Shown here one piece after another: positions 2,322 through 64,000 of a stretch of DNA of 64,000 nucleotides (position 1 is its first letter; each line of letters starts with the position of its first letter). A program made the translations under genes and the position numbers. Source of the DNA: Asterochloris sp. CNOR1 (Eukaryota; Chlorophyta; Trebouxiophyceae; Trebouxiales; Trebouxiaceae). The stretch spans positions 2,108,001 through 2,172,000 of the forward strand of contig OZ017755.1 in the NCBI GenBank assembly GCA_963969365.1. The letters are read 5' to 3'. The notes below the pieces were generated by a model, which did no database searches, had not been told where the DNA came from, and saw nothing but the letters and a program-made list of their open reading frames with translations.

Positions 2322-5300
2322 ATGAACAAATCATCCAGCACAGATGGACTGGAGCGCCCGGTGAGCCTCGATCTGCGGCGTGTTGGATCTTGGCAGTCCT
2401 GGCACATTTGTGGAACTGAACACGCAGTAACTTGCCACTTCTGCTCCGCCTGTCTTGCTTCCAGCTGCTACAAAATCTGGTGCTCTGCAGGCAAGGCAGG
2501 CGTCCATGCAGCTGGGCAAGCACCCTGCCACACCAGTGAAGACCAAGCCTCGCATTGAACGCAACCGTGTCCTGGTGACTGGAGGTGCAGGATTTGTGGG
2601 CAGCCACCTTTGCACCTTCCTTGTGGAGCGTGGTGACCATGTGCGCAGCTTGCCCATGGCCGGTTCTCTGCATAGCTTGGAGGGGTCAGGACTCGACTTG
2701 AGCAAAGCTTGTTGGCCTGGCAAGATTGCCTGCCGGCCCTGTGAAGCTGGGGCCAGTCTGCCTGCACAGGCAGCCCATCAGTGGAGCTCAGCATCTGGCG
2801 GGCGCCCACTCACAGCTGCCTGTGGGGCGCTTCGCCCAGCCACTGGTGTGCCCGCTGGCAACTCCCTCAAGTGCCTGACCCTTGGCAGGAACAGGTCCCT
2901 TCAAAGGGGCCTGGACCTGCACTTGAGCGCTCCCCAGACTCCTGCTTGGAGGCCCCACTCACATCTTGGCTTGGCCGCTGGCCCAGGTGATGTGCCTGTT
3001 GGGCTGGAGAGCATAAGGATGGGCTGTGGCCTGTGGTGCCAGGCACAATGGAGGACTCACACCTGACCTCATGTGTTCCCCACTTGTCTGGCCGCGCAAT
3101 TGATCTGCTTGGCAGGACTTTGTGGCACAGGGCTGGCAGATGTCAGCCAGCCCCATGAGGAGGCAGGGCAAAGGCAGCTAGGACTCAAGGCTCAGCCACT
3201 TGGCGAGGTCAGCTTCACCTTTTACTTGACTGGTGGTGCAGGTGATCTGCCTGGACAATTTCTTCACGGGCTGCAAGGAGAACGTGTTGCACCTCATTGG
3301 CAAGTCCAACTTTGAGATGGTGCGCCACGACATCACGGAGCGCATCCTGCTGGAGGTGGACCAAATCTACCACCTCGCCTGCCCAGCCTCGCCCATCCAC
3401 TACAAGTGAGCAGGCGTTGTGATGCAGATGAACTAAGAGTGGGCAGGTGGCCCAATAAGCTGACAGCCAGGGCACCCCAACCTGAGGCAGGGCATCTCTA
3501 TGTCTATGCAGGCTGGGCTGTCTGCTTGAATGCAGTTGGCCATCCAGCAAGCCATGCCCTTCACATCAACGCTGCGAGAGAAGCTTTCTTTGAACACCAT
3601 GCCCGCCTGTGTTTGGGCCTCCACCAGGGCTGTTGAGGCCAGCCGCCTGTCCCAACCAAGGTGGCAGGGACTGTCCAACACCAGCCGGAACCTGCCTGCC
3701 AATGCTGTGGCCCTTGCAGCAGAGTCAAGCACACCAAGACCCATACTGTGCAGCAGTTGCCTTGCACTCCTGCCAGCAGCCAGTGGCTGCAGGTACAACC
3801 CCATCAAGACCATCAAGACGAGTTTCCTGGGCACCATGAACATGCTGGGCCTGGCCAAGCGCACAAGGGCACGCTTCCTCATCAGCTCCACCTCCGAGGT
3901 CAGCTGGAGTTCCTGTAGTACTCTGTCGTTAACACTGATAATGCCTGCAACTGTGCTGGCCCGTCATCAGCTCCACTGGCGAGAAAGGCTGAGAATGGTG
4001 GGAACAGCAACAAAGGCGGAATTCTGTTGCACCTCGCAGTGCTTTGCTCTGCATTATGACAGCGGGAACCCTGCTGGCAGGGTGGGATGAGGTGCTGAGG
4101 GAGTGCTACTTCTTCTTTAGCTCCACCAGCGGTGTCAGCGGGGTTCTATGGGCATGTTTGGGGATCAGCAACACATCGACCTGGATGGATATCACAATGC
4201 AGTTGCCTCGTCAGACCCATCAGCTCAATGCGGATAGTTGAGTCGTCCTGCAAAGATCTTGCTGTTGACAGTGGTGGCCCTGGTGTGAGCAGCAAGGTGC
4301 TTCAGGACTGACGTTGTCGTCAGCTCACTTATCTGGCTTGCGCAACAGCCTTGTTGCGCTGTGTGTTGCTTTGTCTGTTGACAAGGGAGGCGCTGCGGAA
4401 GCAGAGGCTTGCGCATCTGCTCCATCAGGCAGGCCAGCAGGCAGGGCAGCCCATTGAAAATTATGCATACCTGGTGGCCAGTACCTGCCTCTTGCAGCGA
4501 CCTGCTGCTGTGCCAACTGAAACCTGCTGCTGTGCCTGCTGAAACCTGCTCTGGCGCATGGTGCAGCCTGGCTGGGCACAGCCTGCAAGGCTGGGCTGCT
4601 GCTGTCCAGTCCCGTGACCGAACTGCTCCCCTGAAGGTGTACTCCACCCCAGCTGCCTGGACCTGAGTGCTGCTGTCTCCCGATACAGCCTGCAGCCCTG
4701 CATGACAGTGCAGCCTCTGCACAGGTGTACGACAACCACCTGCGGCCTGTTGCCCTGAGCTGTCTGAGCTGTTGCGTGAGCTGAGATTCTGTCGCCAACC
4801 ACTGCAGGTGCATGCAGCCCGCTGCATCACCCTGTGATCGAGAAGTATCCTGGAGGAAGGTGCATCTGGGACTGCACTTGCGATTGCTGAGTGGCCCTTG
4901 CCCAATCTGCAGGTCTATGGCGACCCTCTGCAGCACCCCCAGACTGAGAACTATTGGGGGAATGTCAACCCCATTGGCGAGCGCAGCTGCTATGACGAGG
5001 GCAAGCGCGCTGCAGAGTGCCTGGCCTTTGACTACCAGCGCGAACACAACCTGGAGGTGAGACACCGAATGCTTTGCTCCTGCCTTGTGACGGGGGCTGC
5101 TGTGTGAGGGATGCAGCAGCGTCCCTGGCCTTCGACACGCAGCGCAAATGCGACCTTGGAGGTAATGTGTGCTCAGCCCCAGACAGACCTCTTACCTGGG
5201 CGATGCTTTGATTGCACCTGCTCATTGCCAGTGCCCGTGGCCAACGCCTGAGCGCTGAGCAAAGAGTGGCCCTTGAGGCATACAGGGCCTGTTGGGGGGG

Positions 5301-7048
5301 GGGCACTGCTTTGACTAGATGCTGTGCATGGCAGGCCTCTGCACAAGTGGCCATCTTGCTCGTTGAACGCCTGTTCTTTTCTGCGCTTTGAAGTTGCGCG
5401 TCTTGAGAACCTCTGACCTAGATGAGATGTTGTTTGAGTTGTGCTCCACCCCTGCAGATCCGGGTGGTGCGCATCTTCAACACCTATGGGCCCCGGATGG
5501 CACTGGATGACGGTCGCGTTGTGAGTAACTTTGTGGCCCAAGCCCTTATGGACCAGCCCCTCACCGTTTATGGGGATGGCCAGCAGACACGCTCCTTCCA
5601 ATATGTGTCTGATCTGATCAGGGGTGAGGCTGGGTGGTGGGTGCGTGGACCTCTGCGCTGTCACACTCTTTTGGCCGTCCCGCACGTGCAACCAGCAGCT
5701 CCTCATAGATGGCCCTTGAATTCATCAGGGTGATGTTGGCTGTTGCTAGGCTGCACAGCCTCTCACTGTCATGGCAACAGCCACCAAATGCCCTCCTTCT
5801 GCTATGTGTCTGATCTCATCAGGCATGAGGCTGGGTGGTGCCTTTCTGCACAGCATCTCTGCACGGTCCCACTCTGTGGCCCCAGATTGGCATGCAGCCT
5901 GCAGCAGGGCACTTTCACAGAGTCCATCATGCGGCTGTCCCCTGCGGCATCGAGACACCCTCCAGAACCGCCCTCCTCAACATGGCCCTTTGACCGACCC
6001 AGGCTGACAAGTGCTTGACGCTGACGTTGCTGGTGACTGCCTGCAGGCATGGTGGCCGTGATGGATGGCCCCGAGACTGGCCCCTTCAACGTGGGCAACC
6101 CCACCGAGTTCACAATGCTGGAGCTGGCAGAGGTCGTCAAAGAGGTGGTCAACCCCCACGCAAAGATTGTGTACAAGGAGAACACTGCAGACGACCCAGC
6201 CAAGCGGAAACCAGACATCACCAAGGTCCGTCAGCCTGTGGAAAACGAGGCCTGGTAACATGGTTTCCAGGTCCACTGTGAGGAGTTGAGCTGTTTGCAA
6301 GCTGTGACAGTCTCTTGGGTCCTGCACTCTGCCAGCAGCCAGCAGCCGCTTCCCAAAATATCAAGTGTCAGGACGCCATGGGCCCCTGGCCATGCCAGCA
6401 CGTGCCAGCCTCCTCAAATAAAGGTCCTGACTTGTCAAGGATGCTGTGGCTGTGCTGCCTCTGCCTTGTTTCTGAGTGGACCCTTGCCGGACTGAAGGTC
6501 CTCCACGCTGCAGATCAAGAAGGCTCTAGGGTGGGAGCCAAAGGTCTCTCTGCGTGAAGGGCTGGCACTTATGGTTGAGGACTTTGCCAAGAGGCTAGGG
6601 TGAGAGCTTGCTGTCGTGACAGTGTGCTGTGGCGATTATACGGAGGTCAGCAGCTGCATAGTCTTGTGTCGTGTGCTTAACTATTGGACGTCAAGCCCAG
6701 GGCCTCCTGCTGCTGGCTGAGGTCAGAACCTGAGGTGCACCTGCCTGGCACAGACTTCCTCCATCGCCTGCCAGCCGCTGTGCTGCTGTTATCTCACGCT
6801 GACCCCTCCTTTGCCTGTCAGCATCGAGAAATCTTCTGCCTCATGTTGACCCCGTGTCGCCTAACAGCAATACAGCACATTTGCCTGACTGGTGTCTGCA
6901 TATTGCAGCAGATGGTTCCACCTTCATCATTGCTGCCCCCCCAGCACGTGCTCTGCATATGCATGGCATCAGCTCGGCACATCTTTGCCTCTGCAGGGTG
7001 ACTGTGAAGAAGAACCCTGAGGACACCCTGAAGGATCTCAAATCCTGA
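2322..7048 (+). CDS. UXS: UDP-glucuronate decarboxylase (UDP-xylose synthase), complete, 9 exons
   Basis: Exons: 2322-2360, 2491-2640, 3242-3405, 3793-3898, 4913-5056, 5458-5623, 6047-6225, 6514-6599, 6997-7048; total 361 residues. It converts UDP-glucuronate to UDP-xylose with bound NAD+, supplying xylose for wall and matrix glycans and glycoproteins. The short-chain dehydrogenase fold is clear: [14 protein letters not shown]-binding loop at about residues 43-53, [27 protein letters not shown], the catalytic Tyr-x3-Lys in CYDEGKR (Tyr180/Lys184), [28 protein letters not shown] and [12 protein letters not shown] near the C-terminus. The short N-terminus without a membrane anchor suggests a cytosolic isoform. 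The first exon (13 residues) is the least certain part; it joins in frame at 2491. Introns 5 and 6 contain degenerate copies of the preceding exon ends. Confidence 0.95.
5107..5166 (+). repeat. Intronic echo of UXS exon 5 donor edge
   Basis: The segment resembles the exon 5 end and splice donor at 5006-5062, about 100 bp upstream: both carry a 'ccctggccttcga / gcctggcctttga' core, then 'cagcgc', then '(c)ttggaggt(a/g)a'. It is not needed for the reading frame and is best read as a decayed junction-spanning duplicate. Confidence 0.65.
5285..5297 (+). repeat. Poly-G run (11 G)
   Basis: A homopolymer of 11 guanines lies in UXS intron 5. It affects no coding sequence and could be a length-variable or assembly-sensitive site. 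Confidence 0.8.
5793..5882 (+). repeat. Intronic echo of UXS exon 6 donor edge
   Basis: Near-copy of 5592-5680 at an offset of 201 bp. The shared core runs through 'tatgtgtctgatct', 'atcagg', then 'tgaggctgggtggtg', and similarity continues on the intron side to 'ctgtggcc'. The donor GT is lost in the copy, so the real exon ends at 5623. Confidence 0.8.
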
Positions 7049-7500
7049 CTGATTCCCTTCCTCTACACGCTTCAGTTCCCTGGCTCAGTATTGCTTCATC
7101 ACTTGTGCGCTGGAGCTCACAAAAGCTGTGATGCCCACGCTGGAGTGGTTCCAGCACTTCACTGTATCCCCCGCCTTGAATAGTTGACCTTGCACCATTT
7201 TTGCTGTGCAGTCATGTGGCTTTGTTACTGAAGGCCTTCATCTTGGATTTGCCTTCATCACAGCACCTGCAAGATGTATCATACACACTGAACACTTTAC
7301 ACAGGACCCTCAGGCCCTGCATGACTAGCCAACACTACAGCGCTTTTTCAGCAGACATCCAGGGCCCAGTGGTATTGCCGCAGACATTCAAAGCAAGCTT
7401 GAGTCAAGTATGGGATATATAAGGGCAATGTTTTGCTTGTCAAACGTCAGTTTCACTAAGTACGGTCTCTTCAGGAGGTGCCAGAGCTTGTGACAGCTGC
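7049..7500. other. Convergent intergenic region
   Basis: The UXS gene and the minus-strand recombinase-like gene end toward each other here, so this stretch holds both 3' untranslated regions. I see no further gene. Confidence 0.6.
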
Positions 7501-10500
7501 TCAGCTGGCGGCGTCAAATGGTGGCGTGGCAAGTGATGGAGCAGGTTCCTGGTGAGGGACGTGCTCGCCCTCCTGTGCAGCTGGGGCCTGCTCAGGCAGC
7601 GGCAGAGCCTGTGCCTGGGGCGCGTCCGGCATGCTAGGATGCTCGGGTGCCAACATGCCCTCAGGCGCTGCCTCATACACACTTCCATGGCCTGGCACCT
7701 ATACAGCAAGAAAGATACAAGCTCGTCGTCAGGCTGCAGCTGTCTGATTGGTATATGGTTGGTTGGACACAGCTCTCTTGCCCAAGCACCTGCACGCCAT
7801 GGGGCTGTTGAGCTCAGAGGTCCACACTAGTCCACAAGGGCTCTCAAGCAGTCGACCAAGCTGCAATGAGCAGCGCAACGTGTCGGGCTTTGATACCCAG
7901 TCCTTTGCCTCTGAGCTGCATGGCAACTCCTGCTCTGCCATCCTGACAGAAGCCACAGGCATGCAGCAAGCCAGTTGCAGGACAAGGCGTCTGCACTGGA
8001 AGCCATTCGCCAGCCGCTCATGCCGGGCAGGACAAGGCAATAGATGACAGCGGGAATCATAATCAAGGTCAACAAGGGGCAGCTGAGCACCACGTACGCA
8101 AAACAAAGGGCACACAGCAAGTGCAGGCCTGTGCTAGCGATCTGTAACAAATCTGACCTGAGCTCCTGGCGGGAGGTGACCAGCTGCCTGCATGGCCAGG
8201 TGAGCAGCATGCTCCCCACCCGCCACACCCCCCTCCTGCACACCCTGCACGCAATAGAAGTCACTGTGAGGCAGCCGACCATGTGGCCAGTACCACTCTG
8301 CGTACACAGCCCAGGTTAGCCCAACTTTGCCAGCAAAGTGACAGCAAATGCTACATGCTGGTGCACATCAGGGGGCACCGTCTCTGGCCATGTTTTCTTC
8401 AGGCCACCCCAGGAGACACTGCGCCATCCAGCGTGGATGCTGCTGCCTGTGCGACCGCCATGTGCAGGTGAATCTGGCAGCCAAAACACAGTATTCCAAC
8501 TTCTGGGACGCTGCCACCACGACAGCGGCCCCTGTGCAGTCGGCTGCCAGGAAGTTTGAAGACTAATCACCTGGTACGCTGCCGCCGCAGCGGCCGCAGC
8601 CATCTGCAAATGCAAGTCAGCGGGAATGCCCTCCTGCCCCTGCAGGGCAGGGTCTGCGGCCCCCCGCTTGCGCTTGCCAGCAGCAGGCTTGGAGGCATAC
8701 TGGTTGGCCAGCTTCTGCAGTAAGTCAAGCAATTGCTCTCCAATTTTGCAGCATTTGATTGATTGGTTGGCCAGCCGCTGCAGTCAATTGGCTGAGCAGT
8801 TGACGAGCGCAGCTGCAAGGACTGAACTGCTTCGCCTGCTCTGCAGCGTTGAGGGGAGACATGCCCGAGCCTGGGCAGACTCGCCTCGGCATGCACGTCT
8901 GTACACGCACATGGCAAAGGCTACAGGGACCACCAGGCAGTGCCACATCCAGCAGGTGCAACAGCTAGGCCACAGCTGAAGCTGTTGCTGAGCTTGCCTG
9001 CAGGGCGGAGTAGTTCTTGTCAGGCTCCATCTGCTGCAGCTCCTCCTCCAGCTGCTGAATCACGCCTGCACACCAGGAAGTTCTCCAGCTCAAACCCACA
9101 TGTCCAATAGCAGTATGAGGGCAAAGGGCCGCAGCTCCTCCTCCAGGTGCTGCACCACATCACTTGGGGCACATAAGAGGGGGGGGGGGGGGGGGGGGCA
9201 CCATCAGAGATGCAGGCAAGCTGCCTGCCGCAGATGCCAGCCTCCCCAGCAGTGGCAGCGCTGCTCATTGCGCTGCTCGGCACCACGGCTACCACAGCAG
9301 GCTCAGGGGCAGTCGGCCTGCTGCCGCCCTCCACTGCTGCCTGGGCGCCCGTGCATCTGTGACCTGATGTGCATTTGCCAGACAGCAAGCATGCCCCAGC
9401 CTGCTTGCGAGATGCCCTGCATCCCCCTTCCAGCGTGACTGCCCAAACTAGCATGCTCCAGCGCCTCTGTCCCCAACTGTAAGCCCCCTCAAGTGGGGTG
9501 CATTGCAGTGCCATGGTGATGCTGACACTGCTGGATGACTCACTGCCGCGCAAGAAACCTGGCCACTCCGCACGCTGCAGAAGCTTCCAGCCTGCCTCAT
9601 GCACAAGCCCAAGGACAACACTGACAGTGCATCTCACACCCGCCGCGCCTCACCGGCTTGCGAGATGATGAGCGCCTCAACATGCCACTGCACTGCCAGC
9701 ATGGCTCAGCAACCTGCGAGTGGTGCATTTGTGCTGACGACAACAAGCAATGGGCAACGCCTGTACGGCCGCAGGCTTGTCATGTGCTTGCAAGACGGCC
9801 TGCACACCTGTGCTTGAGTGCCCCCCATCCACAGCTGTGTTGGCCACATTGCCCCGCATGCCCCACCTGCTTGCGAGATGCCTAGCGCCTCTGTGCGGCG
9901 CTGCACTTCGGCAGCCAGTCCCCGCCTGAAGGCGCTGAAGCGTTCTGCAGCGTTGTGGCGCTCTGTCTTGTTCCCAGCCCAGCGCCGCGCGCTCATCGCG
10001 CTCAGGGTGTTGTAGGCGTGCATGGCCTGCCTCACTGATGAATAGTTGACTAGGGCAAAGGTCTGCAGGGCAGGAGGTCAGAGTCAGCCTTTGCTGCAGC
10101 TTTCAGCCGTCATCGGGGTTTGGGCTGGTGACAAATACACTTCACCTGCTTCCTGGCAGGCTGCTTGACACAAGAGTGCTCAGTGTGGCGGCAGATGCAG
10201 ACAATGGTAGCTTTGTCAGCTCATGGGCATGTGTGCAAGGTTTTTAAATTGGGCAGATTGAGACCCTGCAGTTCAATGCCTTGCACATGGGGCACCAGAT
10301 GACTGGAACAGACTGCAAGTCTTTGCAGTAGCAGTGCAGTCATGTTTGTCTCAGCATCAGGGCCTTGCTGACAGCTTCAGGCTTCAGTGGGCGCCTCTGC
10401 TTGCGCCGCCCGCCTGTAGAGGCGGCTGATGCACTGTGTTGCATAGGAGGGGTGCAAGAATTCAGAAGCCACCTGACAGGGTCCTACGGCAATCTCTGCC

Positions 10501-13500
10501 ATGCTGCTGCAGCATGCTGGATGCAACAGCGCTCACCTACAGCCGCACTCTGTGCTGCCCTCTGCTCAAGCTGCCTGCCTGCACCTGCCTGGCTCAAGCT
10601 GTGCCGGCCACAGTTCGCTCACAGGCAGATCAGTGAGCTGGCAGCCCACCTGAAGGGGTGCTAGGGCGCCCTGCGTGGTCCTCTGCTTGCGTCTCCGGCC
10701 GGTGGGCGGCGGCTCGGGCTCCCAGGCCATCTGCTGGGCCTCAGCCTCCCCTGGCAGGCCCTGCGGCCCGTGCAGGCCCTCCACCTGCAGGCCGCCTGGC
10801 CCCGCCGCAGCCAGGTGCTGGTACTGCATCTGGGCGGCTCTGCTGTCTGCAGGCAGCACCAGCTTGCTGAAAGGCAGCCTCACCCTGCGCAAGCACACCA
10901 CTCACCAGCCACTTGCCACCTGTGCACCTGAGCGGCTCCATGCCATGCAGACAGCAGTGTTCCAGAATCTGGCAGCGCCAGCTAGGCTCTCCGTGGAGAA
11001 TTTGATTCCTGTCAGGCACAGCTGTGTTTGCTGACTGTACAGAAGCTGGCAGGCAGTCTGCACAGGCAGTTGGCACGGCGCGCACCATGCTGCTGCCATC
11101 ATTCCCTGGCTCTTTTTTGGGCATTGCACCAACAGCAGACACATCCGTCTGCTGGCTGCACACCCACAACGCAAGCAGGCTGGCAGGCAGCAGCCAAGTC
11201 ACAAGGTCGACTCTGCCATGCCAGAGGCCCGGCGGTGCAGCCGTCTGGCACCTCAGCACAGGCTCCAGCATGATGCACACTCATCAGTGGATGCATTTCA
11301 GGGAGGTGCGTTCAGCAGGGGCTCCCATCAGGCCCAGCCCATGTCCTTGGGGGGAGTTGCATCTTCAAGCCAGGGTGAGCTCACCAACTCCGGCCTCCTG
11401 CTTCGGAACCCCATCGCTGCCAGGCACAGCTCCATCTGGCGGCTGCATGCCGGTCACGCCGTCTGTGCCGGCCGCAGCAGGGTCCGCCTGGAGTGCTGCG
11501 CCCTCAGAAGCTGGCGCGCTGCCCACGGCTGCCTGAGCGGCACGGACCTGCGTGAGACATCAGACACATTGCATTGCTTTGCGCATTTTCTGATCTGTTT
11601 GAGCCACAATTGACGGCAGAGCAATTGTGCCCTCAGGAGGGCGGCGCAGTGCCCACTGCTGCCTGAGCAGTGCGAACCTGGACAGGAAGAGGATGGACAC
11701 TGAAGATTGCGCCATGCAGTGGTCGCTGCAGCTACAGCATGCTGCTTGAAGTGGGCGCTGACTAGTAGCAACAGCTGCAGCACAGGGGAAGGCACCACAG
11801 GCCGGACAAGACTCACGGCAAGCCCCACCTGAGCCTCAATGGCCTGGTGCTCCTCGGGGGCGGTGCTCTCAAGCTGGGAAGCTGCCTCCAGTGCCTGCTG
11901 AGCAGCAGCAGCTTCACTTCCTGCAGCACAGCACAGCAGCAATGCAGAGCTTCAATTGACTGTTGCATGTGCCATTGCTGCACAAGGGGCTTGCACTTGA
12001 GTGCTGGATAACAACTGACAACAAGGGTCAAGTGCCCACCAAGATTGCTGCCCCACAGGCCACAACAGCAAGCCTGCAGGCACTTCTTTGAGGGTTGCGG
12101 GGAGGATAGCGGACACTCAAAGTAACACCTGACTGGGACTCCAAGACAGCCCAACTGGACAGGCATGCCGCAGCCTCCACAAGGATACCTGTGACTGCTT
12201 GGCCACAAGCAGCAACACGTAGCTCAGCCCGCAACTGACAAGCCAGGACGTCGTAACTCTGAGACGCCTCATTGACGCAGGTACGCTGCGCACCTGGCAT
12301 CTCAGTGATGGTATCTGGTGCTGCCATGGCCACGCTGGCAGGGCCATAGGCAGCCGACACAGGCATCCCCTCGCTGCCAGGAGCGCCAGGCACCTGCAGG
12401 CAGCAAGACTGACTGTTGGGTTTGGGAGAACCCCAGCTGGTCATGGACAGCAATCCTGATGGCCACACCTGATGGACATCTGCGTCAGCCATGCTGTGGC
12501 CGTCCATCAGAGTCCGTGCCATATGTAGCTGGAGAAGGCCACAGGGGGCACACACAGACTCTGCCGCCACCCACCTGCTGCACGCAGCCACAGGTAGCAG
12601 CTGCAGACAGCCACAGTGCAGCAATCCAACGGCCTGGGACTGGGGATGTGCCAGCAGCGGGCCATGTGCTTGAGTCAGATGTTGTGTTGGCCACATGGCT
12701 GTCCTCCACAGGTCTGTGCCAGGCATCATGGGGCGAGGATACCTGCCGCTGTGATGCATCTGCTGCATGCATCAGAGCTGGACATCTAAGCCGCCCAGCT
12801 GCTGGCCGTTAGAGCCAAGGGCCCGCTCTGCCTCCCAGCTGGGTCGACAGGCCAGCCAGCAGCTGCACGTGCAGCTGGAACCCGAAGCCCCATTCATCCC
12901 CCACCCTCTCACTCAGACCCAGGAATGCAGAGACCATGAGAAGGCTACCTGCTGCATGTAGCCGCCCAGCTGGGCAGACAGTCCAGCCAGCAGCTGGGCA
13001 TGCGCCTGGATCAGGCCCTGCATCTCCGCCTCAGCTGCGTTGTGGCTGTCCACCACTGCCTTCTGGAAATCTGGCCACTGCTCCATGCGGCGAATGGTGG
13101 CCAGCTGCGGGATCTTCGCTGCCCACTTCTCCCCCCACGGCTCCTGCAACTTGAGCACCGCATCCTGCAGGCACAGGACGGGCCCCTTCCCACCAAGTCC
13201 ATTGGCCACAAAAATGCCAAGACAGCGAAACAGCACAGCAGGGCTGCCCAGATTGGTCAGTCTCCCAGTGGGCAGCTGACTCTAGTGGAGAAGGCCTGGC
13301 CCAAAATAGCACACCCAGCAATGCCAGCCATGCTGCCGCACCTCGGCTTTCCTCGACAAGCAGGTCACGTGTGGGACCAGGTGCAGCGCTCAGTGGAGAA
13401 AATGCACTGCTGTGTAGCCGATATTGCAGTGAGGGATTCTTTGCACCTGCATTGACAGCTGCTGCGCCCTATGCATGTCGCCCAGAGCAGGCTGCGATGG

Positions 13501-16500
13501 CTGCAAGAACCCCCACAGGGGCCAGCTTGCAACAGGCAACGTCTCAGGTCTGGGGCAGCCAGCACATGCGCACAGGCCCCAAGGGCTGCAGGAACCGATT
13601 TCACTCAGCTTGCAGCAAGGTAAAGGCAACAGAGCAGGCAGCCCACCTGCATGAAGACCTGCCGCGCCCAGTGCAGGAAGCGCAGCGCTGGCCCGTACTG
13701 GTGCAGGTGTTGTCCTGGCTCAGCGTACAGCAAGCGATCGCTCAGGTCCGGAATGGCCACCTCCAGCAGAGCCTCTGGCACTGGCACATTGCGCCCCACA
13801 CTGTGCTGAGTCATCAGATCGGGGCCCCACCCACCCATCTCAATCAAGGCGTCAATGCTGCAGGCAGATGCGCTGCAGTGTCTCAATGGCTGCGGCAAGT
13901 GATGAGGTCATGGCCCCTGCCCTTATCTGAATCAGCATCGCAGGCAGTGCAGCACGCAGGAGGTTGCATTGCAGTCAATGCTGCACGCAGGGGGGTGCTG
14001 CGGTCAAGGCAGTAGTGTTGCAGTAATGTGCAGCCCACGCAACCAGACTCAGCTGGGGACCTGACAGAATCTTGCATTTGACTAAACCTCGCAGTCCTTC
14101 TCAACATAAGCACCCCACACCAGCCTGCTCACAGACATCAGGGACATGCGAACCCATCCTTGGCAGCCTGCCGGGCGTGCACTCACTTGGGCACAGCCTT
14201 GGCTCTTGCGTAGCCCTCCCCCAGCGCATGCAACTTGGACAGGCTCAGCGCGGTGCAGTGCAGGATCACACAGCTCTTGCCGGCGGTCCCAGGCACAGGG
14301 TCGCAGCTGACGCCTGCAGGCAACCGAGATGGTGTCCTGATGGGCTGGTTTGAGCGAGCATGCGGCCTGGGAGCCTCCTCCAGACATCTGCTGCTGGCCA
14401 TGGAGTGCTTGTGAGCAGCAGCCGAGAACTGCAACAAAATTTCGATATGGCACAGCTGCATCAGGCTAGGCTTGATGGGGCAGCAGATTGCCATGCATGA
14501 TGCAATGTGGCCCTGCATGACCCAACAGCGCCTGCGCGCATCTGTGCTGGGCAGCTTCACAGCAACCAACTGCCTGCAGCGTGTCATGCTGGGGCTCCCG
14601 CACATGAGCAGCGGCGCCCGCCTGCAGCTTGGCTGAGTAACAAAGGACGCAGCAGGCTGCCTAGCCTCAGCTGCAACCTCTGCAGCACTCTAAATGGGGT
14701 TGCTCTGCTTGCCTGGGGCCAGGTGCTAACTGACCCGAGCTGCATGAGCCCCTCACTATGTAACACAGCCCTTACAGCAAAAGCTGCTGACCTAACCTGC
14801 ATCCTCCAGAGTGGCGTCCTCATGTGCTTGATCAGTTATGTCATCAAGCACTCCAGTCAAAAACACATCAGGATTCAACGATCGCTCAGCTGCACACCAC
14901 AGTGCAGTCCTCAAGTGCGCAGTCCAGACACACACTGCAGGTCTGCACCAGGAACTGTCCTCTCCCCTGAAACCTGCATCCTCCCTGGCCTTGTTTGACA
15001 TTAGTATAGTCAGGTCCATGCTCCAAATGACCGAGGTCAGGCACTGGAACCACAACCTTCTGCTGGGAAGGGCAGCCTGCTCAAGACCAGGACGTCCGCC
15101 CGCTCATAGCTGCTGCCACAGCTGCCCTGTGGCTACATGTGCTCGCTCAGCGTGCCGAGGCCCAGTGGCTGCCTAGAAGAGGCTCACCTGCATCCTCTAG
15201 TGCCTTCCTCATGTGCTTGCTCAGCGTGCCCGAGGCGAGGCGCTGAGAACCGGGCGAGTTGGGGGCACGCACCACATGCCGGCACAGGGAAGCCTCCGTC
15301 ACCGAGCCTGGGCTCCCAAACTCCATGAGGGAGAGGTCCACCAGCGCCGAGATGGGGCAGATGGTGACGTCCCTGAATCTGCACCAGCCATCAAGGACTT
15401 GGTGTTGAAGTCCAGCTGCAATCTGTTGAGTCTGTGGCAAGAGGCTGAAGCTGTCCAGATGCGGGGTGGCATGATGCATCAAGGCCCAAGCTTTCTGACA
15501 GAGCACAGTTTGTGCGGCCGCTTGGAAGTACGCTGGGGTTGCAACTGCACCCTGCAGCCCCTTATGGCAGCATGCACGGCTGCCAGGCCAGTCCCACCAA
15601 GTGGGCACCAGCTTACACCAAATATCACAGCGGCACCTAGCAGCTCATGCACCTGATGTCCATCCAGCAGCAGGCCGCCACCACCTAAATGGCAGTCCAA
15701 ACACCTCCCAGGGCCTTCAATCCCAACTGGGTACTGCCCCCCACACACGCATGCTGGATTGGCTGCAGGTGGAGACAAATTGCTGCTACGGTGAATGAAT
15801 TGCCCAGCAGCAGAACAGCAGCGGCAGCATGTACAAGTGCCTGGCCTGTCCCTTAAAGCGCACACCGCCCAGAACACAGGCTGCATCAGCACCAGGCAGG
15901 CGCACAAGACCAGCTAAGATGCATGCAATGCCCAGCAGCAGGCTGTCACAGCCCATCTAAGGCGCGTGTCTACCAATTGCACTTGCTGCCACACCAGATG
16001 CTGCATCAGCGCCAGCAAGGGCATAGGGACAACCATGATGTGTGCAGCACTCTGCAAAATTGACATGTGCAAAGATTGCAACTGACTGACATGTCACCCT
16101 CTGGTGGCAAACGCCTGACGCTCAGGCTGCCCAGCAGCTGGCCAGGACAGCCAACCTGTGCGGCATGCACATCCGCCAGGCCAGCCACCCTCAAGTGGGC
16201 GGCGCCCAAAGCGCTGCATCAGCAGCAGAGCTCTCCACAGCCATCCTGTCGGATGAAAGACTGCATGGCCCACACCAGATGGACAGCGAATGCACAACTG
16301 CCCCTCCCCCTTCATCCCCCCTCCCACACCCCCATGAATCCTGTCCAATTCAGATGCATAGCAGCTGTCAAGATGCATGCAGCGCACAGCAGCAGACAGC
16401 GCACCTGGCAGCGAGGGTGGTCGTCTGTGGCCCGAATCCCTTCTCCAAGCTTGCGGCCCGCACTCCGATGGCTGGGTCTGGCCCTGTGTTGTTGCCCAGC

Positions 16501-24422: not shown

Positions 24423-24598
24423 GGCTGTGTCTTGTCTCGGGCTGGCTACCGCAAGTAATACCAGGCAACTTGCGGAGCCTCTGCCCCCAGATTTGAATGG
24501 AAAGGTTTGAAAGTCCAGTCAAACTTCAGGCGCCAGACAAATCTTAGCATAGCAGACGGGCGATCCATCCGCAGTCCACTGCGCTGAAGGCTGCCGGG

Positions 24599-56260: not shown

Positions 56261-56262
56261 GG

Positions 56263-57776
56263 CTAGCACGTCTGCTTGCGCCGCTGCCTGCTCTTGGCAC
56301 TAACCCCTTGCTTGGAGCTTTGCTTGTTATAGGCCCAGCCAAGGTGCTGCTCGCGTGATGCCCTGTTGGTTGGGGAATGCTGTTTAGCATGATGCGGGGA
56401 GGATGGCGCCATCTTGGGCAGTGAGCTGCAGCTTCTCCACACTTCAAGGCCAGAGATGGTCCGTCTCATGATGGCCTGGCTCTCTAGTTGAGTTCTGCAC
56501 TGACAACTTGGCTCACGCTCCCTTGCAGCTTGGCCTGCAGCTTCCCCTTCAGGTGCCCTTGCTTGACACAGAGGTGATAGCTGCGCAGCAACAGCGTAAC
56601 ACAGAGGTGGTCACTGAGCATGGCCTGCTCTGGGCAATGTTGAGGGCAGAGATGGCCAATCCATGATGGCCGGACTTCCCAGCAAGTGTGCCAGCTCACT
56701 GTTTGGCCTGTGCCTGGCTTCAGGTGCCTGTGCTGTGCACAGAAGCGGCTGCTCAGCATCAGCGCAGCGCTGAGGGGACCAGCCCCGGCTTCAGCGATCA
56801 AGTGCACCAGAGCACGGCAGAGCAAAGCTCTCCTGCAGCGCCCCAGCCCTAATGGCATAGTGCGACTGCCCACCACTGTCACCAGCGTGTCCAGGGAGGC
56901 ACTCCAGGAGCTGAGCAGGTGGCTGTGGGAAGCTGCAAAGCTCTGCTCCTAGCACAGCAAGCAAAGGCCCGATACCAGTGCCAATGTGTCAGGTGAGGCA
57001 CTCTGGGATACTGCACTGTACAGGTATACATCCTGCAGAAAGCCATGTTCAGCTGCATGCCATTGCCCATGGAGCTGCACGCGGCGGTCCACAATTGTGG
57101 CCAGTGCCTCCTCCTGGACTTCAGCCTTAAAGCAACACTGCCTGCAAGCAACTGTACGGACAAGTCCAAAGCGCACAGGTTTCCGCAATCGGTGCCTCCC
57201 CTCAGTCAATGTGGACCACCTGCACAGCGTTGTGGGAGGGGTGCATCCAGGTTCCCACAAACTGCTGCTGGCAGCTGTAACCAAGCATTGAAGCAAAATC
57301 TTGCTCTCAGTGCCTGCGAACAAGTTGGTGGCCAAAAACGGCCCATGCTGTCTTCTGCAGGGAAGGAGCTACTGCTGGGCAGGGACTGCCAGTCGGAAGC
57401 GGGGCGGGCTGGCAATGCCGAGCAGCGGGGTGTAACTGAGGCTCAAGGGCAGCAGGGCTGGACTGGCCTGGCATTAGAGTTGTCGGGCTGCTCCCTGCAG
57501 AGGGGCAGGCCCCGTGCGCATGGGGTAGCGCAGATTGGCTTGAGGCTGCATCAGCTGCTCTAGCTGCAGCTGAAGTTACCAGTGGCGGTGAAGCAAAGAA
57601 CGCAACTCACAGACACCAAACTTCCAGGAGGGGATGCCCAGCTGTGGTCTTTGTTTTAGCCATGAGCTCAGCCAACTGCCATGCAGTTGTGCAATGTAGT
57701 CCTCAGCCAGCCCCAGGCTGATGACATGGTTGATGCAGCTGTTGTACTCAGCGGAAAGCACCTGGTAGTGTTGCAT
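56263..57776 (-). CDS. Unrecognised protein gene, structure incomplete
   Basis: I do not recognise this gene. A good first exon runs from the ATG at 57776 to a GTGAGT donor near 57609 and reads MQHYQVLSAEYNSCINHVIS, then LGLAEDYIAQLHGSWLSSWL and KQRPQLGIPSWKFGV. It could join in phase to an acceptor at about 57559, opening an Ala/Ser/Pro-rich frame down to 57303. Further exon-like pieces read AEVQEEALATIVDRRVQLHG with QWHAAEHGFLQD (about 57130-57010) and SLDTLVTVVGSRTMPLGLGR then CRRALLCRALVHLIAEAGAG (about 56905-56800). A short basic frame ending at 56263 (GVSAKSRQRRKQTC) could be the C-terminus. The exon order beyond the first is not settled. The gene is head-to-head with the MOSC-domain gene. 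Confidence 0.35.
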
Positions 57777-58013
57777 GAAGGTCGATCTGGTTTGGCGCGC
57801 TTCAAGGTTGAGACTTAGGGCTCAGGTTACAGGGTGGTACATGGGCTGTCTGATATAATGACCTATCCACACTGCTTGCCAAGTCCATGCAGATTCCAGT
57901 CTTCAGGTCAGCTGATTTCCAGCTGAAGGCTGATCACCACGACTTGTCAACTTGGCATCCCTTCGCGTATTGACCCCAAGTGGATCAGCTGATTATCAAC
58001 AGTGGCTGCATTG
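57777..58013. promoter_or_regulatory. Compact bidirectional promoter region
   Basis: Only 237 bp separate the inferred start codons of the unrecognised minus-strand gene and the plus-strand MOSC gene, so the two probably share a promoter. No clear TATA element is seen. Confidence 0.4.
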
Positions 58014-59307: not shown

Positions 59308-59515
59308 GCAATTTTGCTACAGACATGTTTATGCTATTTGACCACCCTGTTGTGCCAATATACTACATGATATCTCTAAATGCTGGCACAGACAATACAT
59401 GGACAACCGTGGTTCTTTTGCATGACAACATCGAACTATGCATTTGGGTGCTGCTTCATGCAATCATTAATTGCTTCAAATATGCCACACTTTGTACTGA
59501 AATAGAGACTATTGA
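59308..59515. other. Convergent intergenic region
   Basis: AT-rich stretch of 208 bp between the ends of the MOSC gene and the gamma-tubulin complex gene; both 3' untranslated regions fall here. Confidence 0.6.
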
Positions 59516-62500
59516 TCACTGCTGCTGGGCATAGAACTGGTTGAGGTCCAGCTGCAGGAACAGGGGTCGCAGGTGGCCGCGCCCAGCAACGAATTTCAGC
59601 ACTTTGTATAGCATGCGGGTGCGGGTCTGCAGCTCCTGCATGCATTTCTGCAAGGCAGTCCAGGCCACATCGTCCCGCACCACTGCTGCAACGTCCTCTT
59701 CCTTCTGTGCTCTGCAGCCAGCATGAGCAGTGCTGGGAGGGAGCAGGCAGCGGCTGCAGCATATGTCCTTTGCCCCGCTGCTGCTGGCAGCTGCAGGGCC
59801 ACATTTGCTCACCCCTGGCCAGCAGACACCTGGAAAGCCATCACCTGTCAGTTGCATGGGAACGCAAAGGTGTACCGCTGCCGCAGCAGGCCACCTACGA
59901 CAGCCAGTCACATATTACAGAAGGGCATAACTGCACTGCTGTAAGATTCCCCTCAAGCTCAGGGTGACATGCAAGCCAAGAGTCAATGCCAAAGAGTCGA
60001 GCCAACTGGTGTGCTTGCTGGTGGCCCTGGAGTTCAGGATGCGCGGCAACAGCCAGCTCAGCTTTCACCAGGGCGGCACATGTCGACCGCCTGAGGCGCT
60101 CTTGAGTCGGCGTGGCAGTCTGGGAGCATCTAAAGATGACAGATGTGCTGTGCTGCCCCACTGAGCAGGCGGCTGATGCACGCCCCACCTGAGGCGGCCC
60201 AGAACAGCTCTGGAGCCAAGATTGTGCAGCCCCAACCAGCCCCAGCACTCATTGCAGTGCTTTGTGGCACCCACCTGAGGCGCCTCAGGTTGGCTAGGTT
60301 CCTGGATATCTCCAACTTGGACGTGTGTGCCATGCAGCCCACTCAGCACTCGCCAGACAAAGACACATCAGCCACATTGCCCTGATCTTGAAAATGCAAC
60401 AGACACTGCCAGAGCCTGTGATTGTATGCCGCACCTGAGGCGGCCCAAGGTGGCCCTGAAGTCAAGGATGCGCTGCAGGGCGGGCTCAATCACGCCGCGC
60501 AGCTCCCGCTTGTCTGGCGACAGGAGGCACTCCTGCATCGCGCTGCGCAGGTACTCCTGGTGGGCGTCGTGCAGCTCAGAGATGTCCACCACCTCAGCCT
60601 GCACAGCACACAAGCGCTTCTGCAGTTCTGATGGCGTACTGGAGTGCCCTGGGGCACCGTGCAGCTAAGAGATGTTCACCATCTCAGCGTGCACAGCAAG
60701 CAGGCGCCCCTGCAGTTGTGATGGCGTCCTGGAGTCGTGCAGCTCTGACATTTCCATCACATTAGCCCGCACAGCACACAGCTGTGGCTTGCAACCTCTT
60801 GTTTCAAATCAAAGATCTGCCTTGGCGTCGTGCAGCTCGGAAGTGTAGAGCACATTATGCGAGATGTGGAGGGTGGATGGCCAGAAAGATACCTGTAGCT
60901 ATTTGAATCATCAAACAAAGGCCTTGTTCATCACTTCAGGCTGCACAGCACAAATACAATGTTGCATGGGCTGGTCAGGCTTTCAGAGCAAAGCGCACAG
61001 GCATGTATGGGGCAAGTCCATCCGCCTTCCAAACACTGGTGGGAGTGCATGCACGCCTGCACCAATGCCTGACTCGTGGGTCAGGCTTGCCTCCTGGAAA
61101 TGAGATGCTTTGCTCTGTCTCAGCAGCCTCAAAGGTAGCCACACCTGAACATGCTCTTGGAAATGGAAGCTGCCAGCAGGTGCCCAGATGCCGAGATTCA
61201 GGCATAGGCACGACTGCATGTTTGCCTGAAGCTTGATTTTGGCCGCCATATAATGTTTCCTGTTCAGCAGTCTCCCCAACCTACCTCCACACGCTGCTGG
61301 AAGCGCTGCCAGCAGGCGCCCAGCAGCTGGGAGTGCATGTACGCCTGCACCGCGCCCAGGAAGTGCGCGGCCTCATGGCGGAACAGCTGCAGGGCTTGCA
61401 GTCGCTGCTGCACCCAGGCCGGCTGCGGCCCTGCTTCCCCGCCCCTGCCCCCACCCCCTGGCTTCTTGCTGCTGGCAGAGGGGTCCGACCCACGGGCCCC
61501 AGTGCCAGGGGACTGTTGGGGTGTCTGGCGGGAGGTGGGCCCCTTCAGCGGCAGCAGGTCGCCCCACAGGGCGGCCAGCAGGTGGGCCACCCGCTTCAGG
61601 CGCAACAGCATGCTGAAGATGGCGCCGTAGCTCTGGAGGCTCTCCTGTAGGCAGCAGCAGACAGTTGTAGTCGTGCAGGAGGGGCAGGAGTAGGTTCTGT
61701 AGCCAGACGCTGCATCTGGGGCAAGCCAGCCTGCTGTGGCCGGTCAACAAGGTTCAACAAATGTATCCGTACAGGAGTCCAGGAGACAGCAATGTGCCAG
61801 GCACACCACAGCTGCACCCCCGGTGGGCACCAGATATCAGCGGCTTGGATACAGTGGGCCTGTCAGAGCAGACAGGCTGTTCTGCGCAAGCGCCATTGCA
61901 GGGTCTGCCCTGGCAGTGTATCTGACCTCGCTCGGGTCTGCTCACCTCTGTCACAACTGCTGAGAGGGGCCAGTCCACCTGGAATGTCAGCTGGACTGTG
62001 TCCAGTGCTGTCAGCTTGTCATCGTGCACCCGGATGCCACCAATCAGCCTGCACAGCATACATGTACGCTAGAAGCTGCGCCATGCATCCCCTGCTGTTG
62101 GTGGAGCAGGCTGCCAAAGCTGGCGGCTCGCCGTCAACCCTGCTTGTCAGCTTACAGACCAGACCCATGCTCGAGGCTGTGGCACACAGCCGCTGATGTC
62201 AAAGCTGTCATCCGCACATATCAGCGTGCCGCTTCAGCCCACAGACCATGCCCATTAGCCCACACAGCACGCATGCTTGAGGCTGTGACTGCCTCATCTG
62301 CCGCTCCTTTTGCTATCTCCAGCATCCAGGCAGCTTGAGCCACCGCAACAGCATGTCTGCCTGTTCCGCCCTGAGGCGCAGCAGCTGGCGCGCTGCTCAA
62401 GTCCCTCTTGGCTTCCAGGACTGAGACATGTACAGTGGAGGCCCACCAGAGCTGCTAACCCCTAAACCCTCACCCAGGGCGTGGGCGGGTGTGCATGGCG

Positions 62501-64000
62501 CCACTGCTGCCAGCCGGCGATGCAGCCCTCATGCGGATCGGGCTCAGCATGGAGCCGCCGGGCGTGCTGCCTGCAGGCTCACGCTTGTGGCCGGCTGCCT
62601 GCACAGCGGGTGCGCCCTCGCACAGCTGCACCCCTAGACGCTCTGCAGGTGCAACAGCCATGTTATCAGCATGCACAGGAAGAGGTAGCCGCAGGGACAA
62701 AGCATATGCTTGCAGCTCGATGACAGGCCGAGGCAGGCAGGGGGTGCCAGGCACGGCAGAATCCTAGCAGAGGCAACAGAGACCATCAAGGCAAAGCGCC
62801 AGGGGCATAATTTTTGGCATTGTGCCTGGAGAAATTGTACCGATGTTCATTGCTGAAGTGGGCAAAGGACAGCTCCAAATGGCCAGAAGTTGTCTCATGC
62901 TGTTTGTAGTGCCCACCGATAAGATCTCTCATGCCTCGCCCGCAGATGCATCCACTTTACAGCTGGAACTCAGCCTCACTGTGAGCAGCCACATTGCTGT
63001 GCATCCCCTCTCAGACGCACAAAACGCTTGGTTGCCCAGCCCACTGTATGAGCACAGCCTGCTGCCATTTGATGGCAACCCTTGTCCCCGTGCAGCCATG
63101 TTCACCAGCATGCACTCACCTGTGTACATGTCCCCCTCACAACTGGAGCCCCGGAGTGCATCTGCAAGTGCATCCTGCAGTGCATGCTCCTGCAGGTCGC
63201 CTCCCTCGGCCGTGTGCCGGCACAGGCCCTCAGTGAGGGCGCCTGCCCAATCGCCCGCTTCCATGAAAAAGTAGCGCCGCAGGGCGCCCAACAGGTCCAG
63301 CAGCCGGAGCTCCTTCAGGAGCAGCCTGCATATGCACCGGGTTAGAAGCTGCTTGAGGAAAGAACATGATTGCCAAAGCAACCTTCGGGCGCCAGGAACA
63401 CCAGTCCCAAAAGCTCCCCAGCGCAGAGCTCCATCTGGAGCAGCCTGCAAGCACCAGTGGGTGCCAGAGTATATCAACAACGCATCTCAGGGCTAGATGC
63501 ATCGACTGGCAGGAGAAGGTTCTACGCAGCCAGGCCCCTGCAGACGCCATGCATTGCAACACAAGCCTGCAGTGAGCGGCTCCTCTGGTGCAGCATGAGC
63601 ATATCGGAGGCAAGCTGGCAAGCAAGCTGGTGGGGTGTCATAGAGAGCTGGCAGCTGCACCATGCCAGTCGCCCCTGACCATACATATGGTTCACACAGC
63701 TTACCCTAAGCTTGATCCTGCCACACGTCAGTGCAGCGGCGCTCACCCTGCGCACACGCAACCATGTGCCGGCAGTACAAATCATTCCTTCAGTCTGCCC
63801 CGTGCTCACCCCATGCAGGCCCGGCTGATGCAGCGATACTGGTCCAGCAGGCTGCTGATGATGCAAGCATCCAGCACCACTGGCAGCGGCTCCAAGGCCT
63901 CTTCTGTGCCCTCATCCTCAGCTTGCATTGCCATTCCTGCAGGCAGCAGTAACAGCGTGGTCATTGCCGGCACTGAAGGGAATGCACGAGTGCTGGGCCC
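59516..64000 (-). CDS. Gamma-tubulin complex component (GCP family), 5' end outside window
   Basis: Exons seen: 63936-63809, (one unresolved exon near 63740-63690), 63325-63120, 62570-62474, 62048-61946, 61644-61285, 60598-60435, 59711-59516. From 63325 onward every phase agrees. GCP proteins build the gamma-tubulin ring that nucleates microtubules. The linker and GRIP2 domain are visible: PLPVVLDACIISSLLDQY, ELRLLDLLGALRRYFFMEAG with DWAGALTEGL, QLTFQVDWPLSAVV, ESLQSYGAIFSMLLRLKRV with AHLLAALW, RHEAAHFLGAVQAYMHSQLL, DISELHDAHQEYLRSAMQ with ECLLSPDK, and the short C-terminus RPLFLQLDLNQFYAQ. The 'AH-YL...CLLSPDKREL' block resembles GCP3 and GCP2 more than GCP4-6, but I cannot assign the paralogue. 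A Gly/Ser/Pro-rich insert of ~45 residues (ASSKKPGGGGRGGEAG) sits after the LWGDLLPLK helix. Its N-terminal GRIP1 domain is beyond the right edge. Confidence 0.92.
60020..60310 (-). repeat. Serial echoes of GCP exon 60598-60435 donor edge
   Basis: The plus-strand block 'cacctgaggcggcccaa' at the exon end (60432-60450) recurs at 60187 ('cacctgaggcggcccag'), 60272 ('cacctgaggcgcctcag') and about 60088 ('accgcctgaggcgctc'). All lie in the downstream intron. Confidence 0.75.
60645..60865 (-). repeat. Three serial echoes of GCP exon 60598-60435 acceptor edge
   Basis: The plus-strand edge 'gtgcagctcagagatgtcca' to 'ctcagcctgcacagcac' (60569-60610) recurs at 60659-60700 ('gtgcagctaagagatgttca', 'ctcagcgtgcacagca'), 60737-60780 ('gtgcagctctgacatttcca', 'tagcccgcacagcac') and 60831-60860 ('gtgcagctcggaagtg'). 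The spacing is about 80-95 bp and each copy retains a splice-acceptor-like block. Confidence 0.85.
61030..61080 (-). repeat. Echo of GCP exon 61644-61285 donor edge
   Basis: Plus-strand 'gggagtgcatgcacgcctgcacc' style block at about 61041-61063 matches 'gggagtgcatgtacgcctgc' at 61329-61348 inside the exon, about 290 bp away. Confidence 0.6.
63385..63455 (-). repeat. Echo of GCP exon 63325-63120 acceptor edge
   Basis: Plus-strand 'gagctccatctggagcagcc' (63428-63447) matches 'gagctccttcaggagcagcc' (63307-63326) at the exon start, with further weak matches to the left ('ggcgccaggaacaccag' against 'ggcgcccaacaggtccag'). Confidence 0.7.

Follow-up and report, generated by a model that had tools for sequence, protein, structure and literature searches.

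Do the introns of this locus contain decayed copies of the exon edges that flank them, and if so, how did the copies come to lie there? We analyzed the whole 64-kb stretch of DNA (the window) together with 200 kb of another chromosome (C1), using a gene finder trained on both. Of the 349 introns tested, 65 lie in the window and 284 on C1. Each exon edge was compared, in the same orientation, with the intron that flanks it, at a threshold of SW ≥ 28. The mucin tract (28400-34650) was excluded from the counts because its protein repeats would inflate them, and most tests disregarded junction pairs whose offset exceeded 600 bp (one C1 pair lies at 975). Nine window stretches were translated, and six were run against Pfam, the MOSC stretch minus its first two predicted exons.

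Donor edges matched their own flanking intron in 28 of 349 cases and acceptor edges in 19 of 349. The reverse complement of the same introns gave 3 donor and 0 acceptor matches, introns of other genes gave 0.6 and 0.35 (mean of 20 draws), and same-gene non-flanking introns gave 2 and 3 matches in 1392 tests. The comparison against a non-flanking null that the first-pass annotation had proposed, run here on the window and C1, thus revealed an enrichment of flanking matches, and exon-edge copies inside introns are borne out by own-intron matches far above the reverse-complement and other-gene controls. Roughly one in nine of the introns tested contains an eroded version of the adjoining exon edge. 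Copy-bearing introns make up 19 of 65 in the window versus 22 of 284 on C1 (Fisher p = 1e-5).

The annotation was also right that the copies lie on the strand of their parents. Self-comparison (score ≥ 32, offsets up to 500 bp) recovered 47 direct and 0 inverted pairs in the window, mucin tract excluded, and 54 direct and 4 inverted pairs on C1; the copies are, by direct observation, local direct repeats. Extra loci (54.1 kb; 8 of 11 chosen by a CTGCAG-type motif, one being the UXS paralogue) showed copies in 3 of 41 introns (control 0) and 20 direct versus 0 inverted pairs. Altogether, 49 junctions have copies, a figure that includes four C1 junctions with a copy beyond the limits of the predicted gene, as well as junction 56724, which is poorly supported. 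The copies in the window are given below, with identity over aligned length; the alignments of 34 window pairs were inspected, of which those displayed for junctions 8714 and 15187 (offset 75) were self-matches and carry no weight.

5113..5163, plus strand: UXS donor-edge copy; parent 5009-5058, exon end 5056; 76% over 51 columns, offset 104; also in the UXS paralogue
5756..5840, plus strand: UXS donor-edge copy including intron side, the latter above all 200 null draws; parent 5554-5639, exon end 5623; 78% over 86 columns, offset 202; also in the paralogue
8764..8784, minus strand: short, weak acceptor-edge copy; parent 8701-8721, exon 8571-8714; 90% over 21 bp
9128..9158, minus strand: acceptor-edge copy; parent 9033-9063, exon 8974-9065; 87% over 31 bp
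9389..9416, minus strand: second donor-edge copy; parent 9856-9882, exon 9867-10062; 96% over 28 columns, offset 467
9647..9678, minus strand: first donor-edge copy; parent 9860-9891, exon 9867-10062; 84% over 32 bp, offset 213
11626..11680, minus strand: acceptor-edge copy; parent 11497-11550, exon 11385-11547; 78% over 55 columns
12830..12879, minus strand: near-donor copy, match ending 12 bp before the junction; parent 12961-13010, exon 12949-13164; 82% over 50 bp
13444..13492, minus strand: donor-edge copy; parent 13644-13692, exon 13647-13857; 73% over 49 bp
14792..14835, minus strand: donor-edge copy; parent 15183-15224, exon 15188-15378; 84% over 44 columns, offset 391
15136..15161, minus strand: short copy near the donor of exon 15188-15378; parent 15210-15236; 93% over 27 columns
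16729..16760, minus strand: acceptor-edge copy; parent 16612-16643, exon 16405-16637; 88% over 32 bp
25691..25716, plus strand: second acceptor-edge copy; parent 26018-26043, exon 26028-26308; 92% over 26 bp, offset 327
25933..25965, plus strand: first acceptor-edge copy; parent 26021-26052, exon 26028-26308; 91% over 33 columns, offset 88; intron side z 4.9
27402..27436, plus strand: donor-edge copy; parent 27218-27252, exon 27038-27246; 86% over 35 bp
27653..27683, plus strand: acceptor-edge copy; parent 27842-27873, exon 27851-28010; 84% over 32 columns
37072..37142, plus strand: acceptor-edge copy; parent 37162-37231, exon 37194-37439; 76% over 72 columns, offset 90; intron side p 0.01
37466..37580, plus strand: donor-edge copy, clear tandem unit (match length equals offset); parent 37364-37477, exon end 37439; 75% over 122 columns, offset 102
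44868..44918, minus strand: eIF3b acceptor-edge copy; parent 44677-44727; 76% over 51 bp
46668..46698, minus strand: eIF3b acceptor-edge copy; parent 46428-46458; 87% over 31 bp
46758..46783, minus strand: further copy of eIF3b acceptor edge 46428-46458; 85% over 26 bp
47011..47072, minus strand: second eIF3b donor-edge copy; parent 47351-47414; 80% over 65 columns, offset 340
47157..47229, minus strand: first eIF3b donor-edge copy; parent 47340-47412, exon 47343-47525; 85% over 73 bp, offset 183; own locus only in genome search
49297..49389, minus strand: second eIF3b donor-edge copy; parent 49564-49657; 78% over 95 columns, offset 267
49451..49491, minus strand: first eIF3b donor-edge copy; parent 49575-49615; 85% over 41 bp, offset 124
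56547..56607, plus strand: predicted-acceptor copy upstream of MOSC exon; parent 56718-56775, exon poorly supported; 74% over 61 columns; intron side z 4.0
60020..60048, minus strand: second GCP donor-edge copy; parent 60449-60477, exon 60435-60598; 86% over 29 bp
60182..60201, minus strand: first GCP donor-edge copy; parent 60428-60447, exon 60435-60598; 95% over 20 bp
60652..60735, minus strand: first GCP acceptor-edge copy, clear tandem unit; parent 60562-60645; 85% over 84 bp, offset 90; intron side z 10
60731..60780, minus strand: second copy of GCP acceptor edge 60562-60645; 84% over 50 bp, offset 168
60925..60952, minus strand: third copy of GCP acceptor edge 60562-60645; 86% over 28 bp, offset 342
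61040..61063, minus strand: second copy near GCP donor 61285, match ending 43 bp before the junction; parent 61328-61351; 96% over 24 bp
61164..61187, minus strand: first copy near GCP donor 61285; parent 61298-61323; 88% over 26 columns; intron side z 5.9
63406..63449, minus strand: acceptor-edge copy; parent 63287-63330, exon 63120-63312; 82% over 45 columns

Under the strict test, copies were found in 2 of 7 introns of UXS, 6 of 12 of the minus-strand gene at 7261-17040, 4 of 12 of the mucin-like gene, 5 of 15 of eIF3b, and 2 of 6 of GCP. The kinase gene (0 of 7) and MOSC (0 of 2) had none, and MOSC rests on weaker repeats: 56547~56718 beside the poorly supported exon, and an array at 58402. 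Five gene regions therefore pass rather than the seven or more that had been claimed, and the minus-strand gene, which had been called weak, is the strongest of all. A third UXS copy near 5395 (acceptor 5458) scored 17, below the 95% null of 20, and was not counted; the intron of the UXS paralogue passes the edge test at the exon matching this acceptor.

Some decayed copies were in part mistaken for short exons by the gene finder itself (44876-44914, 46671-46691, 60680-60709, and 63402-63444). Edge copies thus mislead gene finders.

What do the repeats look like? Copies had been placed 80-300 bp from their parent; we measured 62-466 bp for pairs with offsets up to 600 bp, a wider range, and the nearest copies sit 62-246 bp from their junction. 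Inclusion of the junction was observed directly, in 79% of donor (n = 38) and 100% of acceptor matches (n = 27), compared with 87-88% in a tandem-duplication simulation. Homology extends into the intron side in 40% of the 47 nearest copies versus 9% for unrelated introns; simulated tandem units gave 57% and 43%, and the observed 40% is compatible with decay of whole tandem units. Match length approximates the offset in the clear cases (37364 and 60562 in the window, 112562 and 124231 on C1), although not for most large offsets. At 9 of 13 junctions with several copies, the first and second spacings agree to within 1.2-fold (shuffled mean 25%, p = 0.001; mean log ratio p = 0.11), so the evidence that serial copies are evenly spaced is no more than suggestive.

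The copies look neutral. Their mismatches are nearly flat over codon positions (0.196/0.188/0.237), and 36 of 65 copy pairs carry a net frameshift, a pattern that gives no sign of the coding constraint expected of tandem or alternative exons. Both UXS copies are present in the paralogue at the same places, with 86 and 75.6% identity, and therefore are older than that gene duplication. Intron windows between the paralogues are 76.5% identical (S.D. 7.6); the UXS copies diverge at the intron rate, one (86%) toward the top of the range seen for introns. Together, direct orientation, intron-side homology, near-flat codon-position mismatches, and the shared UXS copies support the earlier proposal of junction-spanning tandem duplication followed by decay.

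We consider it probable that the copies are the remains of old, short tandem duplications across junctions, visible through their conserved coding parent. Such duplications would have hit these genes in the past, some units spanning an exon-intron junction. The splice site beside the intact exon would have stayed in use, and the duplicated exon border, with its splice site and the first part of the intron, would then have been enclosed in a longer intron and left to drift. Repeated duplication at one place would yield serial copies, and duplications entirely within exons would seldom be retained. Because the parent exon is under selection and only the copy diverges, junction duplications would stay recognizable; intron-only and intergenic ones would have faded because both of their sides decay. 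Production of duplications may have been higher in the past, and the large-offset copies presumably arose in tandem as well, although among the 15 nearest copies with offsets of 160-400, just 3 have homology on the intron side.

The balance of duplication classes bears on this explanation. Clusters collapsed by hand gave junction:intron:intergenic = 51:19:1 (0.72:0.27:0.01), where exon-plus-intergenic pairs and two clusters merely abutting a predicted exon count as junction. This tally omits secondary pairs between copies, pairs between exons, and three pairs whose offset exceeds 600; intergenic duplications are almost missing among detected pairs. Evenly spread ages predict 0.475:0.384:0.141 and were rejected (p = 6e-5). 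Simulated ages of 0.2-0.3 per branch, a model adopted only after the uniform-age model had failed on the data, gave shares of 0.64-0.89:0.08-0.25:0.03-0.11, close to those of the hand-collapsed clusters. At a constant rate, 25-31% young pairs would be expected, as estimated from the detection rates of the age simulation. On this model, old age and a conserved coding parent may account for most of the exon-edge preference.

The same explanation leaves the near-missing intergenic duplications and the short exon parts of the matches unexplained: medians were 47 nt for donors and 33 nt for acceptors, compared with 59 nt under uniform breakpoints (p = 0.004 and 3e-7). Nor does its simulation, in which identity is flat, reproduce the peak near the junction (0.80-0.91 within 20 nt versus 0.74-0.78 at 20-50 nt; 0.83 at 50-70 nt from donors). 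The higher frequency of copies in the window than on C1 also counts against it. Short exon parts, together with the excess of junction over intergenic pairs, are what one would see if duplication were tied to the junction itself, e.g. by breakage at paused or R-loop-prone borders, with units starting a few tens of bases within the exon. A steep fall of acceptor matches in 40-nt windows, from 18/349 at 0 nt from the junction to 3/337 at 20 nt (predicted ratio ∼0.78), points the same way. We nevertheless regard this as unlikely, given that age and parent conservation reproduce most of the class excess and that 19 intron-only clusters exist in the hand collapse. Selection on survivors, by which copies with an exon part long enough for a pseudo-exon were removed or stripped of their splice site, would also leave short exon parts, and donor copies lacking GT do have longer ones (median 61.5 nt, n = 12, versus 38 nt, n = 26). 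This comparison is only suggestive, its p value (0.03) being marginal and detection confounding it, because short matches are found only with an intact junction. Acceptors show no such effect (p = 0.87), and GT is kept in 26 of 38 donor and AG in 20 of 27 acceptor copies, about as neighboring bases predict (∼0.64 and ∼0.63); we judge such selection quite improbable.

That most aligned copies keep their dinucleotide (GT in 26 of 35, AG in 20 of 26), and that one UXS copy is so alike between paralogues, could be taken to mean that the copies serve as alternative or mutually exclusive exons or as functional decoys. The flat mismatch profile, the frameshifts, and the intron-like divergence of the other UXS copy make this very improbable, and the sequence lends no support to the decoy or alternative-exon role that had been suggested. 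Creation of the introns by tandem duplication of AGGT-containing exon segments would also place exon-edge copies within introns, but it predicts an upstream-exon copy ending at the 3′ end of the intron. None of the 60 copies whose position was determined lay closer than 80 bp to the far end, and we give this origin almost no credence.

Did the copies make introns grow, as had been proposed? Copy-bearing introns have a median length of 534 nt (n = 41) versus 302 nt (n = 308) for the others, a comparison confounded by the greater room that longer introns have to show a copy. Under the tandem model, copies would contribute ∼15% of the intron length tested in the window and 3.7% of that on C1, so growth has some backing, although the length difference itself is confounded. 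The abundance of CTGCAG inside introns that the copies were meant to explain does not exist: 392 sites compare with 423 expected under an order-3 Markov model, and the density of 3.07 per kb is below the intergenic 3.46.

Short tandem duplication across junctions, our preferred reading, would tie intron growth to a conserved coding parent, and with growth so tethered, old duplications can be counted and dated in one genome, which makes intron lengthening testable. It is conceivable, if doubtful, that a past burst of short tandem duplications favored exon-intron junctions, that splicing determined where breakpoints fell or which copies survived, and that introns grew by junction units. On this view the exon part is limited to a few tens of bases and intergenic DNA has almost no such duplications; conserved exons would then serve as a clock dating intron growth. 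If the junction bias is real, the way in which intron DNA arises or persists would be connected with splicing or transcription.

Among known systems, introners repeatedly supply intron sequence and are reported chiefly from rapidly evolving lineages, green algae among them (PMC9860276). Introners form dispersed families, whereas the copies here are local to their parent. We searched the genome with six parent-plus-copy stretches (6 of the 49 junction families; a MOSC exon that contains no copy is not counted) by a method that passes over very common words; five matched their own locus only and one also a colinear gene paralogue, and the introner or transposon reading was rejected. The Rogers model of AGGT intron gain is alike in that local tandem duplication in genes yields extra splice-like sites; in the outline given by PMC3443670 and PMC2891723, however, a duplicated exon turns into an intron, whereas what we see looks like the lengthening of introns that already existed. 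Tandem exon duplication likewise copies exon sequence into the adjoining intron, but here only the exon edge is recognizable, and it is decaying. Our search of the literature by topic found no description of serial decayed junction copies. The statement that the pattern has no named description is nonetheless too strong, as tandem genomic duplication is a named process with a boundary-crossing case in potato RdRp (PMC4974935). There, a tandem duplication that took in the 3′ part of an intron plus the 5′ part of the exon after it gave rise to a newly spliced intron; ten nucleotides distinguish the two copies, and an intronic tandem duplication of 83 bp is also mentioned (PMC4974935). The potato duplication resembles ours in crossing an intron-exon boundary. 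In the present case we see no new intron, and the copies have diverged, often occur in series, and are present at 49 junctions.

The edges of exons (at most 60 nt) were compared with their own flanking introns in the window and in a 200-kb sample of contig C1 of the same genome. Matches were found for 28 of 349 donor edges and 19 of 349 acceptor edges. The controls gave far fewer: 3 donor and 0 acceptor matches when that intron was reverse-complemented, on average 0.6 and 0.35 with introns of other genes, and just 2 and 3 per 1392 tests with non-flanking introns of the same gene. These data confirm the claim of the first-pass annotation that introns carry copies of their flanking exon edges, also when flanking introns are set against non-flanking ones; the copies are real. 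Their frequency differs between the window (19 of 65 introns) and C1 (22 of 284); at the extra loci, most of them chosen for a CTGCAG-type motif and one because it holds the UXS paralogue, 3 of 41 introns held a copy. Local repeats at parent-to-copy offsets of up to 500 bp were direct in 47 cases and inverted in 0 in the window, and 54 and 4, respectively, in C1. Positions 1-287 of the extra locus L001, on C1, form a tandem array with match offsets in multiples of 27 bp (73-84% identity), which may be a coding repeat.

The window (C10:2108001-2172000) belongs to a genome of 56.4 Mb in 21 contigs, has a GC content of 53-63% along its length, and contains intron-rich genes. In these respects it is similar to the green alga Asterochloris glomerata, with 56 Mb, GC mostly 56-62%, and about 9 introns per gene (PMC6652019). 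All gene models are predictions, from a gene finder trained on the window and the 200 kb of C1, where it placed 667 exons, 414 of them of high confidence (45 bp or longer, with a coding score of 5 or more). Nine window stretches were translated and six submitted to Pfam; five of these were supported, as epimerase (UXS), kinase, eIF2A plus RRM (eIF3b), MOSC, and GCP C-terminal, and the sixth, the minus-strand gene at window 7261-17040, had no match. The gene finder labelled bits of decayed copies as short exons (window 44876-44914, 46671-46691, 60680-60709, and 63402-63444), a likely annotation hazard.

Five of the eight gene regions examined in the window pass the edge test; one of the eight, window 21226-24450, has no testable intron. 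The earlier count of at least seven genes, with the minus-strand gene affected weakly, is thus not borne out: MOSC showed edge copies in 0 of 2 introns by this test, and the minus-strand gene is the strongest and densest, with copies in 6 of 12 testable introns. The kinase gene likewise gave 0 of 7; between its predicted exons lies a tandem repeat (window 43162-43268, period 57 bp, 1.9 copies, 76% matches). The Thr/Ala/Pro-rich mucin-like coding tract at window 28400-34650 contains several tandem repeats with units of 15-87 bp, one at 96% matches. An eIF3b intron holds a repeat pair (window 53820-53896 and 53960-54028) with one member predicted as an exon (53825-53887), and no high-confidence exon parent was recognised for it.

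We listed 66 parent-copy pairs and aligned 34 from the window, discounting two of those as self-matches. Among 38 donor pairs, 79% had a match extending to the junction, as did 100% of 27 acceptor pairs. Mismatch by parent codon position was 0.196, 0.188, and 0.237 (65 pairs), and 36 of 65 pairs had a net frameshift on the exon side. Aligned copies retained GT in 26 of 35 cases and AG in 20 of 26, about the level expected from neighbouring identity. In a whole-genome search with six parent-plus-copy stretches, four from the window and two from C1, five matched their own locus only; the UXS stretch also matched a paralogue on contig C4. Of the 60 copies with a measured position, none sat at its intron's far end. 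This counts against intron gain by tandem duplication of AGGT-containing exon segments, a model that we set aside.

Tandem duplication across a junction would have to copy the intron side as well. Significant intron-side homology was present in 40% of 47 nearest copies, compared with simulated values of 57% at matched divergence, 43% at slightly higher divergence, and 9% without homology; the share was 59% among the 17 copies with offsets of 60-110 and dropped to 20% among the 15 with offsets of 160-400. At junctions with at least two copies, the second spacing was within 1.2-fold of the first in 9 of 13 (shuffled mean 25%, p 0.001); the mean log ratio of spacings at these 13 junctions was not significant (p 0.11).

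Duplications placed evenly in genes and over time would give junction, intron-only, and intergenic shares of 0.475:0.384:0.141. The observed 51:19:1, with clusters collapsed by hand, rejects this uniform model (p 6e-5). Modelled divergence of 0.2-0.3 per branch since duplication shifts the shares to 0.64-0.89:0.08-0.25:0.03-0.11, because pairs that contain exon sequence decay half as fast when the parent is conserved. The identity distribution fits old age: the 48 pairs that span 45 bp or more include none at 0.95 or above and 3 at 0.90-0.95, fewer than the 25-31% estimated if the rate had been constant (p 8e-4 to 3e-5), although identity above 0.9 does occur in some shorter matches. Together, these results indicate that most of the exon-edge preference can be explained by age, fitted post hoc, and coding conservation.

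A residue is left beyond age and conservation. The exon part of copies had a median of 47 nt at donors (p 0.004) and 33 nt at acceptors (p 3e-7), versus 59 nt under uniform breakpoints. Few exon windows lying 20 nt or more from the acceptor were copied (at 20 nt, 3 of 337, versus 18 of 349 at 0 nt; predicted ratio about 0.78). Over the first 20 nt from the junction, identity exceeded that at 20-50 nt; on the donor side it recovered to 0.83 at 50-70 nt. The simulated profile was flat. Intergenic local direct-repeat pairs numbered 0 in the window and 1 in C1, versus 8.6 and 6.8 under random placement. Selection against copies resembling whole exons could account for the short exon parts and the rest of this residue, as could breakpoints tied to the junction; we give a junction-linked process a modest chance.

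The UXS paralogue provides a date for two copies:

Extra locus L031 (C4:1382001-1392000), 2019-6889, aligned with window 2293-7324: paralogue of UXS, its exons and introns colinear with those of the window gene, 78% along an alignment of 4.5 kb

Over the colinear 4.3 kb or so, exons are 92.6% and introns 76.9% identical. Both UXS edge copies occur at the same positions in the paralogue (86% and 75.6%), indicating that they are older than the gene duplication. Against 60-bp intron windows (76.5%, sd 7.6, between paralogues), the two have changed at roughly the rate of intron DNA, with the first on the slow side of the range. The paralogue can help to date changes in introns.

Introns are known to arise by tandem genomic duplication (PMC3443670), and in potato one such duplication that crosses a junction has been described (PMC4974935). 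In the open-access literature searched, no account turned up of junction copies, serial and decayed, as a common residue in introns. We regard the event as one of a known kind, tandem genomic duplication, and the copies reported here as a new form of it.
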